From assembly GCF_017302985.1 (NCBI RefSeq), contig NZ_JAFIMU010000007.1:62001-126000 (forward strand): a DNA stretch of 64,000 nucleotides, written 5' to 3'. This document shows, piece by piece, positions 52,685 through 59,852 of the stretch (position 1 is its first letter; every line of letters starts with the position of its first letter). The position numbers and the translations under genes were made by a program. Origin of the DNA: Corallococcus macrosporus (GTDB lineage Bacteria > Myxococcota > Myxococcia > Myxococcales > Myxococcaceae). The notes beneath the pieces are model-generated. The model did no database searches. It saw only the letters and a program-made list of their open reading frames with translations, and had not been told where the DNA came from.

Positions 52685-53022
52685 CGCTTCTTTCCTTTCG
52701 TGGGTGTCTCGGGGGTCGCGTCCATCCGGTCCAGATGGCGCTCCAGCGCATCGACGTGGGCCGTCCAGAAGCGCCGGAAGGGCGTCAGCCATTCGTCCAC
52801 CTCCATCAGCGGCTCGGGCCGCAGCCGGTAGACGCGCCGCTGGGCATCGACGCGCGCCTCCACGAAGCCGGCCTCGCGCAACACCTTCAGGTGCTTGGAC
52901 ACGGAGGACTGGGGCATCCTCAGCTGGCGCTCCAGCTCACCCACGGAGCACTCCGACGCCGCCAGCAGGCTGAGGATGCTCCGTCGGTTCGGCTCCGCGA
53001 TGATCGCGAACGAAGATTCCAT
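52681..53022 (-). CDS. ArsR-family repressor, operon B
   Basis: 113 residues from ATG 53022 (MESSFAIIAEPNRRSILSLLAASECSVGELERQLRMPQSSVSKHLKVLREAGFV). Tail PFRRFWTAHVDALERHLDR, as in ArsR proteins linked to SRPBCC genes. Another ATG at 53031 is in frame, but it lies inside the predicted -10 hexamer, so the transcript is probably leaderless from 53022. Divergent from the uvrA2-like gene. Confidence 0.92.
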   Translation of the reverse strand: MESSFAIIAEPNRRSILSLLAASECSVGELERQLRMPQSSVSKHLKVLREAGFVEARVDAQRRVYRLRPEPLMEVDEWLTPFRRFWTAHVDALERHLDRMDATPETPTKGKKR

Positions 53023-53024
53023 GC

Positions 53025-53058
53025 GGTTCATATACGCACTGGTTCATATTCCCGTCAA
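53025..53058 (-). promoter_or_regulatory. Promoter of operon B with direct-repeat sites
   Basis: On the minus strand TTGACG (53058-53053), 18 bases, TATATG (53034-53029), with the ArsR ATG (53022) seven bases on. Two direct repeats GGTTCATAT(A/T)C (53025-53035 and 53041-53051 on the plus strand, 16 bp apart) cover the -10 and spacer. Likely ArsR binding sites. Confidence 0.6.
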
Positions 53059-53076
53059 GGCATATACCCCACGCCC

Positions 53077-55380
<2,304 letters not shown>

Positions 55381-55553: not shown

Positions 55554-56087
55554 ATGGAAATCAAACCCCAGGCCATGGCGATACCCAGGTCGACGGACCA
55601 TCTGGAGAAGGGGAAGTACGGTCCCATCTTCCCGAAGACCCCCGCCTGTTATGGCTTCACGATTGTCGCCAACGTCAAGCCGGGGCGCGCCGATACGCTG
55701 CGCGGCTACGGTCAGAGCCTGGCCGAAGCGCTCAAGGGCGCCCCGGACCTGCTCGCACCGCTCAAGCTCCACTACCTGCGCTGGGTGCTCTTCGATGACG
55801 ACACCCGGTTCATGTATCAGGGCATCTTCGACACCGACTTCGACAAATACACCGAGGACGCGGTCGTCCTCTTCACGAAGTCCGGCATCAACACCGCCTT
55901 CGAAAACCTCGAGGGGTTTCCCATGGACTGGAAGACCAACGCGCCCGCGTTCGTCAAGTTCATCCGGGACCACCAGTGCAACAGCTTCCTCGAATACGGC
56001 GAGTATCCCTACTTCACGAGCGATGAGATCAAGAAGGCCCTGAAGCTCAAGGCCTCGTTCACCGAGATGCTCGAGCAGATGCAGTAG
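55554..56087 (+). CDS. Uncharacterised protein, first gene of DyP operon
   Basis: 177 residues, no signal peptide. GFTIVANVKPGRADTLRGYGQSLAEAL, LKLHYLRWVLFDDDTRFMYQGIFDTDFDKYTEDAVVLF suggest a ferredoxin-like alpha/beta unit resembling half of a DyP/chlorite-dismutase-type barrel (inference). Trp, His and Tyr are abundant but no haem motif is certain. ATG 55554 with GGGAG seven bases upstream. The next gene begins nine bases after its stop. Confidence 0.78.
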   Translation: MEIKPQAMAIPRSTDHLEKGKYGPIFPKTPACYGFTIVANVKPGRADTLRGYGQSLAEALKGAPDLLAPLKLHYLRWVLFDDDTRFMYQGIFDTDFDKYTEDAVVLFTKSGINTAFENLEGFPMDWKTNAPAFVKFIRDHQCNSFLEYGEYPYFTSDEIKKALKLKASFTEMLEQMQ

Positions 56088-56096
56088 GGGCCTGTC

Positions 56097-57113
56097 ATGA
56101 GCGAGCCATCCGGGCGCACGTACAACCAGAGCCACACTCCCAGGAAGTACTCGCGGGACCATCGGCGGGTCAGCGTGTACACGTCCTGGAGCTACCCCGG
56201 AGAGGCCAATCGCAACACCGCCGAGATGGACAACCGGTTCTCGACGATGGTCGAGGTCCGCCGGGTGCTCTGGCCCGCCTACGAGTCCCCTCAGTGGTCG
56301 GACGCGCGGAGGTTCCAGCAGGGGATCGCGGGCTCGCTGGAGCTCTTCTTCTGGGCGTGGGTGAAGTTCCAGCAGGTCATCGAAGAGGTCACCGGGCACA
56401 AGGTCCCCATGTTCCAGCGGGTGGACCAGGCGGGCTTCTCCCTGCCGCTCGACGAGCGGGTCCTCGGGGATGCGGACACGCTGCTCATCTTCGGTCTGGA
56501 CCACGACGTCACCGAGCAGGAGGCCGCCCCGGAGGAGATCGAAGCGGTCCGCGCCTTCCTCGAGCGCGAAGGCACCTGTCTGGTGATTGGCCCCCACCAT
56601 GACGTCGGGCACTCTCCGGACCTGGACGAGCGTGCCCAGGAATACGCCCACCATGGCGATGCGCTGGTGCCGCGGCAGCAACGCTTCGGCCGCTATGCGC
56701 GCTCGTTGATGAAGGGGCTGGGAATCCCCGTGGAGAATCGCTGGGGTCTGCGCCCCGCCGTCGTCGCGGGGACGAACCGGAGCGCCCCGCTGACGGTGAT
56801 GGCGGACCTGGACACGCGCGGCTGGCTGACCGGGGTCCAGAACTTCAACTTCCACCTGCACCTGCCGCACTACGCGGTCACTTCGGAGGACTCCGGTTCG
56901 GCTCGCGTCCTGGCGAAGCAGCCCATCGACCGGACCCGGCCCCACCCGTTCACGAGCGCGGGCAACACCGAGTTCAACGCGCTGGTGTGGATGCCGCCAG
57001 GCGATGGCAGGGCCGGCGACGTGCTGGTGGCGGACTCCACCGTCTTCAGCACCCTGTTCGGGGCGGACGAGAGCCTCGTGCGTTTCTGGAAGAACCTCGC
57101 CACGGCCCACTGA
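56097..57113 (+). CDS. Uncharacterised protein, second gene of DyP operon
   Basis: 338 residues, no signal peptide. Central stretch ADTLLIFGLDHDVTEQEAAPEEIEAVRAFLEREGTCLVIGPHHDVG resembles the strand-helix-strand of GATase1-like/ThuA-like domains. Later FNFHLHLPHYAV is His-rich. Ends FGADESLVRFWKNLA. Family not recognised. ATG 56097, nine bases after the previous stop; the DyP gene starts one base after its stop, so expression is clearly joint. Confidence 0.8.
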   Translation: MSEPSGRTYNQSHTPRKYSRDHRRVSVYTSWSYPGEANRNTAEMDNRFSTMVEVRRVLWPAYESPQWSDARRFQQGIAGSLELFFWAWVKFQQVIEEVTGHKVPMFQRVDQAGFSLPLDERVLGDADTLLIFGLDHDVTEQEAAPEEIEAVRAFLEREGTCLVIGPHHDVGHSPDLDERAQEYAHHGDALVPRQQRFGRYARSLMKGLGIPVENRWGLRPAVVAGTNRSAPLTVMADLDTRGWLTGVQNFNFHLHLPHYAVTSEDSGSARVLAKQPIDRTRPHPFTSAGNTEFNALVWMPPGDGRAGDVLVADSTVFSTLFGADESLVRFWKNLATAH

Positions 57114-57114
57114 G

Positions 57115-58428
57115 ATGCTCGAACTGGACGACATCCAGAGCGGCGTGCTGCGGCCCCGGCCATCTCCGTACGTCGCGACGTACATCCTCCTGCGCATCGA
57201 TGAGCGGAGCGCGGGACGGGAGTTGATGCGGCGGCTCGGCGCGGCGGTGACCCCGGCCAGCGATCCCGGCAGCGCGGCCGCCGACCCCGGGCTCGGCGTC
57301 GCGCTCACGTATCACGGGCTCGAGGCGCTGGGCGTTCCGCGGGACTCCCTGGACAGCTTCGCGTGGGAGTTCCGGCAGGGCATGGCCGCCCGGGCGAAGA
57401 CCCTGGGCGACGACGGTGAGAGCAGCCCCGAACACTGGGAACCACCCCTGGGAACGAGCGAGGTCCACGTCGTATTGACGGCGCTTTCGCCCAATCAGGC
57501 CCGGCTCGAAGCCGCGCTGGACCGCGCGCACACGGCCCTGCGGGCGCTTGGCGGCATCACGGCCCTGTGGCGTCAGGACTGCCACGCCCTGAGCACGGGC
57601 AAGGAGCCGTTCGGGTTCAGGGACGGCATCAGCCATCCGGCCATCGAGGGGAGCGGCATTCCCGGGAGCAATCCCCATGAGGCGCCGCTCAAGCCAGGCG
57701 AATTCGTCCTCGGCTACCCGGATGAGACGGGCGGCATCTCCCCGATGCCCCGGCCCGACGTCCTGGGGCGCAATGGAACCTACGTCGCCTTCCGCAAGCT
57801 TCATCAGCGCGTGGCCGCGTTCAGGCAGTACCTGAAGGACGCCGCGAGCAGCCCGGAGGACGAGGAGGTCCTGGCGGCGAAGATGATGGGGAGGTGGCGG
57901 AGCGGCGCGCCGCTGGCGCTGTGCCCCCACCACGACGTTCCCGGCCTGGGCGCCGATGCGTCGCGAAACAATGACTTCCACTATTCCGATGACCCGACCG
58001 GATACAAGACACCTCCCGCGTCGCATATCCGGCGAGCGAATCCCCGCGACGCGTCGGTCGCTGGCGTGGTCAGGCTCCACCGGATGATCCGGCGCGGGAC
58101 GGCCTACGGCCCCGAGCTGCCCGACGGCGTCCTCGAGGACGATGGCGTCGACCGGGGGTTGATGTTCGCCTTCATCGGCGCGCACCTCGGACGGCAGTTC
58201 GAGTTCGTGCAAGCGGAGTGGGTCAACGGCGGTGAGTTCCTGGGGCTGGGCGATGCGAAGGACCCCATCGCTGGCGCGCACGACGGGGCGGGCGACTTCT
58301 CCTTCCCGAAGCGGCCCATCCCCAGGCGGCTGCAGGGCCTTTCGCGGTTCGTGGTCACGCGCGGAGGCGAGTACTGCTTCATGCCCGGGTTGCGCGCGTT
58401 GCGGTGGCTGGCGGAGCTCCAGACATGA
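57115..58428 (+). CDS. DyP-type haem peroxidase
   Basis: 437 residues. The DyP hallmark GFRDGISHP (GxxDG; distal Asp) at about 167-175, proximal His region VRLHRMIRRGTAYGPEL near 320, and a C-terminal GLMFAFIGAHLGRQFEFVQ block followed by GGEYCFMPGLRAL. Two ferredoxin-like domains expected. Cytoplasmic (no Tat signal RRxFL). Uses H2O2 to oxidise dyes, phenols or unknown partner substrates. ATG 57115 and its TGA overlaps the ATG of the flavoprotein gene (58425-58428). Confidence 0.92.
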   Translation: MLELDDIQSGVLRPRPSPYVATYILLRIDERSAGRELMRRLGAAVTPASDPGSAAADPGLGVALTYHGLEALGVPRDSLDSFAWEFRQGMAARAKTLGDDGESSPEHWEPPLGTSEVHVVLTALSPNQARLEAALDRAHTALRALGGITALWRQDCHALSTGKEPFGFRDGISHPAIEGSGIPGSNPHEAPLKPGEFVLGYPDETGGISPMPRPDVLGRNGTYVAFRKLHQRVAAFRQYLKDAASSPEDEEVLAAKMMGRWRSGAPLALCPHHDVPGLGADASRNNDFHYSDDPTGYKTPPASHIRRANPRDASVAGVVRLHRMIRRGTAYGPELPDGVLEDDGVDRGLMFAFIGAHLGRQFEFVQAEWVNGGEFLGLGDAKDPIAGAHDGAGDFSFPKRPIPRRLQGLSRFVVTRGGEYCFMPGLRALRWLAELQT

Positions 58429-59852
58429 ACGATTCAATCCCCATGGATGTGGTGGTCATCGGTGCCGGACCCGCGGGACTGCTCGCGGCGCTCCGCGCTG
58501 GCGACCTGGGTGCCCGGACCGCCCTGGTCACCCGCGACGAGTTCGGCGGCATGGCGGCCCACGACGGACCGGTTCCGGTGCGGACGCTGGCGCAGGCGGC
58601 GCGGCTGCTCCGCGACGCCCGGCAACTGGGGCGCTATGGCATCGCGGTGACAGAGCCCGTGCTGGACTACGAGCGGCTGCTCGAGCGCGTGCGCGAAGTG
58701 TCCGGCGACGTTCGCACCCACGCGGCCCTGCGCGAGCAGATCGCCGCGGCGGGGGTCACCGTGCACGAGCACGCCGGCGCCGCGCGCTTCACGGACCCGT
58801 ACACGCTCGAGACCGGGCGTGGGCTCCGGTTTCGAGCGGAGAAGTTCATCCTCTGCTCCGGCGGCGTGAGCCGGCGCCTCCCCATCCCGGGATTCGAGCT
58901 CACGAAGACCCACAGCGATGCGTGGAGCCTGACCGCCGTTCCACCGACGATGCTGGTCGTCGGCGGTGGCGCCACGGGCGTCCAGGTGGCGTCGGTCTTC
59001 AATGACTTCGGCACACGGGTGCAGCTCTTCGAGGCGGGAGCACGCATCCTGCCCACCGAGGACGAAGACGTGGCCGCCGCCGTCGCGGAGTCCTTCCGTC
59101 AGGCCGGCATGGAGGTGCGCGAGGACTTCGGCAGGATTGAACGCTTCGAAGCGACGCCAGGGGGCGTGCGGATGGTCTTCTCCAAGGATGGTGTGCAGGA
59201 CAGCGCCGAGGCCGCGCTCGTCGTCGCCGCCGTGGGCTGGATGGCGGACACCTCCGCGCTCAACCTCGCGGCCGCGGGCGTCGAGACCGACCCGCGAGGC
59301 TTCGTTCGCGTCGATGCCCAGCTGCGCACCTCCACGCCGCACATCTTCGCCGCCGGAGACGTGACGGGGCGCATGATGCTGGTCCCCCAGGCATTGCAGG
59401 ACGGGTTCGTGGCGGGCTCCAACGCGGCACGGGCACCGATGATCTCCGTCACGGACGAGGTGAGTCCCATGGGCAGCTTCACCGATCCCGAGTATGCGCA
59501 AGCGGGCCTGACCGAAGCGAAGGCACGTCAAACCCACGACGTCGTCGTGGCGGTGGTGCCCTTCGACTCGACGACGCGGACCCTCATCGATGGTCGAACG
59601 ACCGGGTTCTGCAAGCTCATCGTCGACCGCGCCACGCGGACCATCCTCGGCTGCCACGTGGTGGGAGAGCGCGCGGTCGACCTGGTCCAGACCGCGGCGA
59701 TCGCCATCGAGGCGGGGATGCGCGTGGAACAACTGGCTCGCATTCCCCTCTCGTTTCCCACCTATACCGGCGTCCTGGGTCGTGCGGCGGCCATCGCGGC
59801 CCGCCAGCTCCAGGTCGACGTGGAGCGGTCCCACCTCGCGGAGCTGCTCTGA
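58425..59852 (+). CDS. Flavoprotein disulfide-reductase homologue lacking the redox cysteines
   Basis: 475 residues. FAD motif VVVIGAGPAGLLAALRAGDLG, NAD(P) motif LVVGGGATGVQVASVFNDFGTRVQLFE, and the second FAD motif TPHIFAAGDVTGRMMLVPQALQDG. C-terminal dimerisation domain (GSFTDPEYAQAGLTEAKA, FCKLIVDRATRTILGCHVVG). In lipoamide/mercuric reductases the GGTCxxxGC segment holds the redox CxxxxC; here positions 41-51 read GGMAAHDGPVP, with Ala 44 and Pro 49 replacing both Cys, and the C-terminal His-Glu pair is also absent. Probably an electron-transfer or peroxide-related NAD(P)H oxidase (inference). Coupled to the DyP gene. Confidence 0.9.
   Translation: MNDSIPMDVVVIGAGPAGLLAALRAGDLGARTALVTRDEFGGMAAHDGPVPVRTLAQAARLLRDARQLGRYGIAVTEPVLDYERLLERVREVSGDVRTHAALREQIAAAGVTVHEHAGAARFTDPYTLETGRGLRFRAEKFILCSGGVSRRLPIPGFELTKTHSDAWSLTAVPPTMLVVGGGATGVQVASVFNDFGTRVQLFEAGARILPTEDEDVAAAVAESFRQAGMEVREDFGRIERFEATPGGVRMVFSKDGVQDSAEAALVVAAVGWMADTSALNLAAAGVETDPRGFVRVDAQLRTSTPHIFAAGDVTGRMMLVPQALQDGFVAGSNAARAPMISVTDEVSPMGSFTDPEYAQAGLTEAKARQTHDVVVAVVPFDSTTRTLIDGRTTGFCKLIVDRATRTILGCHVVGERAVDLVQTAAIAIEAGMRVEQLARIPLSFPTYTGVLGRAAAIAARQLQVDVERSHLAELL

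Follow-up and report, generated by a model that had tools for sequence, protein, structure and literature searches.

The genes for two proteins, designated P1 and P2, and for a DyP peroxidase form a conserved cassette, and P1 is the near-constant genomic partner of the clade of class-V DyP peroxidases to which this enzyme belongs. The cassette was found in the window, the whole 64,000-nucleotide stretch of Corallococcus macrosporus DNA that was analyzed, together with a gene for a flavoprotein, P4. The original prediction for this locus was an NAD(P)H-flavin-heme relay. The near-constant pairing of P1 with DyP is a stronger new result than that relay, and it is P1, not the flavoprotein P4, that accompanies DyP almost constantly. 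The four genes are as follows.

P1: 55554..56087, + strand, 177 aa, no Pfam or NCBIfam match above cut-off
P2: 56097..57113, + strand, 338 aa, no Pfam or NCBIfam match above cut-off
DyP: 57115..58428, + strand, 437 aa, matches to TIGR01413 and PF21105
P4: 58425..59852, + strand, 475 aa, matches to PF07992, PF02852, and PF00070

The ORF coordinates confirm the predicted arrangement of four co-directional genes at 55554–59852. P1 and P2 are separated by 9 bases, P2 and DyP by 1 base, and the DyP and P4 genes share a 4-base ATGA overlap. Purifying selection acts on each of the four genes, as judged against the Corallococcus and Myxococcus loci (dN/dS of 0.03–0.29). It is strongest on P1, whose start at 55554 is kept in relatives. 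A scan for sigma-70 promoters and terminators gave nothing informative. A role in anti-phage defense was rejected, with no PADLOC match for the locus. Directly upstream of P1, a long ORF (52735–55380 of the window) with a UvrA-like ATPase sequence was recognized by eye.

The P2 alignment was scanned against one genome per species for 84,980 species. This search provided 293 encoded relatives, of which the best 80 were retained. P1 and DyP are encoded near P2 on the same strand in 80/80 of these loci, usually in the order P1-P2-DyP; the gene order is thus not unique to this genome. Chance adjacency of P1, P2, and DyP is rejected by this conservation together with the purifying selection, and the expectation that the genes constitute one real unit is borne out by their wide conservation across bacteria. 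The best 80 of the 293 loci are from the Myxococcota, Actinomycetota, Acidobacteriota, Pseudomonadota (Alphaproteobacteria), and Rokubacteria. The distribution is patchy, mainly in soil actinobacteria and myxobacteria. One more record, labeled Comamonas, shares 86% identity with the myxobacterial genes. The cassette is also carried on Streptomyces and Nostoc plasmids, with the order P1-DyP-P2 in Nostoc. P2 is present in 29 of 195 Myxococcota genomes, and the identical 29 genomes hold a DyP with >70% identity. All of the co-occurrence counts given here for P1, P2, DyP, and P4 were taken without phylogenetic correction.

Several loci depart from this arrangement. In genome G009 (L058, 5871–7312), in-frame stops are present in P1 and P2 while DyP is intact, and the cassette is apparently decaying. 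P1 was sought at the P2-only loci of Rhizobium and Caballeronia, and none was found there. In Rhizobium sp. T1473 (L076, 7077–9823), a P2 homologue (~39%) is located between DUF692 and DNA-binding-domain genes, after a DUF2282 gene, in a neighborhood resembling a peptide-modification cluster. A pyridoxal-dependent decarboxylase gene in Rhizobium leguminosarum (L073, 5859–8990) is followed directly by a P2 homologue, and a DyP-domain gene is found ~7 kb away.

The DyP protein is recognized by TIGR01413 (108 bits vs a cut-off of 100.5) and by PF21105. It is a class V enzyme (the former class C) for which the closest solved relative is the DyP from D. radiodurans (8re2 and 8re3; E of 9e-130 for 8re3); the fungal DyP 2d3q is matched at an E of 3e-41. 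Judged from the sequence, the catalytic residues are intact. The GXXDG motif, the proximal His, and the distal Arg appear at G167, D170, G171, H304, and R326, and G167, the distal D170, the proximal H304, and the distal R326 are conserved in 88/88 sequences. The absence of an export or encapsulin-type context was predicted correctly; the protein shows no obvious export signal, and encapsulins were found neither among the four operon products nor among the recurrent neighbors. Encapsulin-DyP operons are similar in that a DyP is encoded with a dedicated partner gene, but the Corallococcus operon has no encapsulin gene and the partner is the small P1 protein.

The D. radiodurans DyP (DR_A0145) is ~48% identical to the Corallococcus enzyme and shares its catalytic Asp, Arg, and proximal His, whereas the last residue of the GXXDG motif is Met in the former and Gly in the latter. 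A P1-family gene is also located directly upstream of DyP in D. radiodurans (L072), but this locus lacks P2 and P4 and contains a catalase-family gene instead. Once purified, the D. radiodurans enzyme shows no activity at pH 7.5, where it is in a six-coordinate low-spin state; its optimum is at pH 2.8, and the authors of that study raise the possibility of partner proteins, such as encapsulin (PMC10820274). We hypothesize that P1 relieves this neutral-pH block. Mentions of operons or neighboring genes were sought in selected papers on class-V DyPs and none was found, which does not prove their absence.

The 177-residue P1 and the 338-residue P2 were initially described as unrecognized. This description holds for the family databases but not beyond them, since each protein has a predicted fold and many relatives. 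Sequence-profile searches of the PDB with P1 and with P2 gave no significant match. The AF2 model of P1 (pLDDT of 72, pTM of 0.63, best structural Z of 7.2) is similar to ABM-type dimeric alpha+beta barrels, with moderate confidence. The N-domain of DyP is of the same fold class, according to the PF21105 description. The idea that P1 is a copied and diverged DyP domain was rejected, since the P1 HMM gave no hit in DyP. The predicted fold resembles that of the ABM-, NIPSNAP-, and EthD-type barrels, from which P1 differs in having no sequence match to them and in being tied to DyP genes. Positions conserved in ≥90% of 18 diverse P1-family sequences include H73, R76, D83, D93, D95, D97, Y99, and D102.

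P1-DyP pairs without P2 and P4 are found in D. radiodurans, Rhodococcus, Agrobacterium, Microvirga, and Acinetobacter, and a neighboring DyP is present in 30/30 of the plasmid records listed for P1. With a profile made from 18 diverse P1 sequences, a P1-domain protein was detected directly upstream of 24/24 divergent Myxococcota DyPs (DyP identity of 31–42%); one of these matches is weak (L185, E of 7e-5). The proteins so detected are mostly ~500–700 aa in length, and the best-matched one contains two profile matches. Plasmid DyPs that seemingly lacked P1 were found by profile to have one in 8/8 cases, adjacent to DyP in seven and ~1.6 kb away in the eighth. P1-profile and DyP matches coincide in 16 of 59 relatives, the same 16 genomes for both. 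P1 is located beside nearly every related DyP examined and could for this reason be the partner so far missing for this type of enzyme.

Three other arrangements were observed near P1-like genes. Another myxobacterium (L051, 858–3974) encodes an in-frame fusion of a class-V DyP with a cytochrome P450, closely preceded by a P1-like gene. An animal-type heme peroxidase (L053, 9834–11408) is encoded three genes downstream of a P1-like/DyP pair. In Sinorhizobium chiapasense (L188, 4859–5770), a NIPSNAP-family gene directly follows DyP and is itself followed by a second P1-profile match.

The AF2 model of P2 (pLDDT of 82, pTM of 0.86) has a GATase/ThuA/IFT52-like fold, predicted with good confidence. 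The VIA Z values for the predicted structure are 13.7 to the IFT52 N-domain and 12.3 to the ThuA-like protein 1t0b. The residues H167, H168, H185, H186, D188, H253, H255, H258, H283, and D313 are invariant among 61 P2 sequences, and no catalytic Cys is found in the invariant or nearly invariant columns of the same alignment. These ten residues could form a metal site or take part in acid–base chemistry. The predicted fold resembles that of ThuA-like proteins, class I glutamine amidotransferase-like proteins, and the GIFT domains of IFT52 and OST48; P2 differs from these proteins in lacking the conserved Cys nucleophile, with PHHDVG at the elbow, in its ~10% identity, and in having no Pfam match. 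P2 represents an undescribed His-rich family with a predicted glutamine-amidotransferase-like fold.

The matches of P4 to PF07992, PF00070, and PF02852 identify FAD and NAD(P) Rossmann domains and a dimerization domain, in agreement with the prediction that the nucleotide sites are kept. The predicted substitution of the redox Cys pair by Ala and Pro was also found. The GGvCLNvGC segment of lipoamide dehydrogenase aligns with G41-G42-M-A44-A-H-D-G-P49 of P4. At the C-terminus, HPTxxE is replaced by F444-P-T-Y-T-G449, and the catalytic His-Glu pair is lost. The claim that P4 is incapable of disulfide chemistry is upheld by the loss of both pairs. The description of P4 as cysteine-free is correct for the redox pair (A44 and P49) but not for the whole protein, in which Cys144, Cys396, and Cys410 are present elsewhere. 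The losses at A44/P49 and F444/G449 are kept across all P4 orthologues, and the motif GGxAxxDGPxPVRTLAxAARL is common to those from Myxococcota, Actinomycetota, Alphaproteobacteria, Acidobacteriota, and Rokubacteria. P4 represents a conserved flavoprotein lineage that gave up disulfide chemistry.

P4 scores below the SthA model PRK05249 (226.7 bits vs a cut-off of 465), with AXXXXP and not CXXXXT, and below the LpdA-type NAD(P)H-quinone dehydrogenase model PRK07845 (210.5 bits vs a cut-off of 479). P4 is similar to SthA, LpdA (Rv3303c), and Irc15p in keeping the FAD and NAD(P) sites and losing the disulfide center, and the His-Glu pair is missing from LpdA as well. It differs from these three proteins in lacking both Cys residues, the His, and the Glu, in falling below every NCBIfam cut-off, and in occurring almost only in the cassette. 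The characterized Cys-deficient relatives are transhydrogenases, quinone reductases, or diaphorases with a slow leak of peroxide (PMC9460512, PMC6296175). LpdA, with one Cys and the His-Glu pair missing, reduces quinones, and Irc15p reduces menadione and produces peroxide slowly (PMC6296175).

P4 is an optional fourth gene, present at 19 of the 80 loci (best 80 of 293). It is mostly located directly 3′ of DyP but precedes P1 in Nonomuraea and Thermoactinospora. Among the 195 Myxococcota genomes, P4 is found in 15 of the 29 that bear the cassette, and 15/15 myxobacterial P4 genes lie inside it. When 40 cassette genomes were searched, a P4 missing at the locus was missing elsewhere too, except in one genome (G068). 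The P4 and P2 trees have 10/14 splits in common; P4 has therefore for the most part moved together with the cassette. A relative at 42–43% is encoded on the opposite strand in Catellatospora. In two Acidobacteriota, a different flavoprotein, SthA-like (transhydrogenase-like) and free of the Cys pair, takes the slot and is encoded between P1 and P2.

Transport genes adjoin the cassette in relatives. An SBF transporter is encoded at 37 of the 80 loci (best 80 of 293), nearly all actinobacterial and mostly 3′ of DyP, and a Phenol_MetA_deg outer-membrane protein at 9 of the 80, all 9 Gram-negative. Neither was found by the same search in the retained Corallococcus loci. These neighbors suggest that the substrate of the cassette is a transported small organic or aromatic compound.

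The reading that we prefer, with a probability of about 0.5, is that the four genes encode a module for oxidation in the cytoplasm, in which P1 and DyP together make up a two-component heme enzyme and P4 is an accessory NAD(P)H reductase. P1, a predicted ferredoxin-like alpha+beta-barrel protein, would dock on DyP and control access to the heme or its ligation state. The P1-DyP enzyme would then use peroxide to oxidize a small organic, probably aromatic, compound, which the transporters of relatives would move, and P2 would act on the substrate or the product. Where present, P4 would recycle an oxidized product or cofactor as an NAD(P)H-dependent diaphorase or quinone-type reductase, by analogy with the Cys-deficient LpdA, SthA, and Irc15p, which reduce quinones, nicotinamide, or dyes. 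The conserved adjacency of P1 and DyP can also reflect a shared pathway and not a complex, and the intact DyP alongside stop-bearing P1 and P2 genes in G009 counts against the two-component enzyme. Amycolatopsis DyP2, another class-V enzyme, was studied without any partner (PMC11107159), and from this and other class-V DyPs so studied P1 may not be needed for catalysis.

The relay originally proposed, in which P4 oxidizes NAD(P)H and either makes H2O2 for DyP or passes electrons directly to the DyP heme, is unlikely. It would fit the ATGA overlap of the P4 and DyP genes, their direct adjacency in most P4-bearing loci, and the peroxide released by Irc15p (PMC6296175), by the Cys-deficient SthA, and by its C45A variant, in which 37% of the NADH electrons go to peroxide (PMC9460512). 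The known oxidase rates are slow, however, at 0.1 per second for the side reaction of SthA (PMC9460512), and the position of P4 upstream of P1 in two genera argues against the relay. The relay cannot be the general mechanism because P4 is dispensable, with an orthologue missing genome-wide from most organisms that have P1-P2-DyP. Direct transfer from NAD(P)H to the heme is possible but not favored.

An antioxidant function, in which P1-DyP clears organic hydroperoxides and detoxifies lipid peroxides, is likewise improbable. P1-DyP pairs without P2 and P4 are often near genes for catalase-family proteins, 3-hydroxyacyl-CoA dehydrogenase, and oleate hydratase, and the animal-type heme peroxidase near one relative and the cytochrome P450 fusion of another would be in keeping with this function; the P2-containing cassette, by the recurrent-family count, has small-molecule transport genes beside it and none of these neighbors. 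It is very unlikely that the cassette makes rather than degrades a small metabolite that the SBF protein exports. The patchy distribution in mostly soil actinobacteria and myxobacteria, the occurrence of the fold predicted for P1 in polyketide cyclases and cofactor-free oxygenases, and the Rhizobium P2 homologue in its peptide-modification-like cluster are consistent with such tailoring, but no scaffold-building enzyme recurs among the neighbors, and the Phenol_MetA_deg outer-membrane barrels point more to the passage of hydrophobic compounds.

The two-component reading has a stronger form, which we regard as tentative and rather doubtful, in which a large bacterial clade of class-V DyPs would depend on P1 as an obligate activating subunit and, together with it, would turn over a specific small molecule at neutral pH. 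If this is true, past work on the class-V DyPs of this clade has left out the protein with which they naturally function. P1 provides a concrete candidate partner for these peroxidases.
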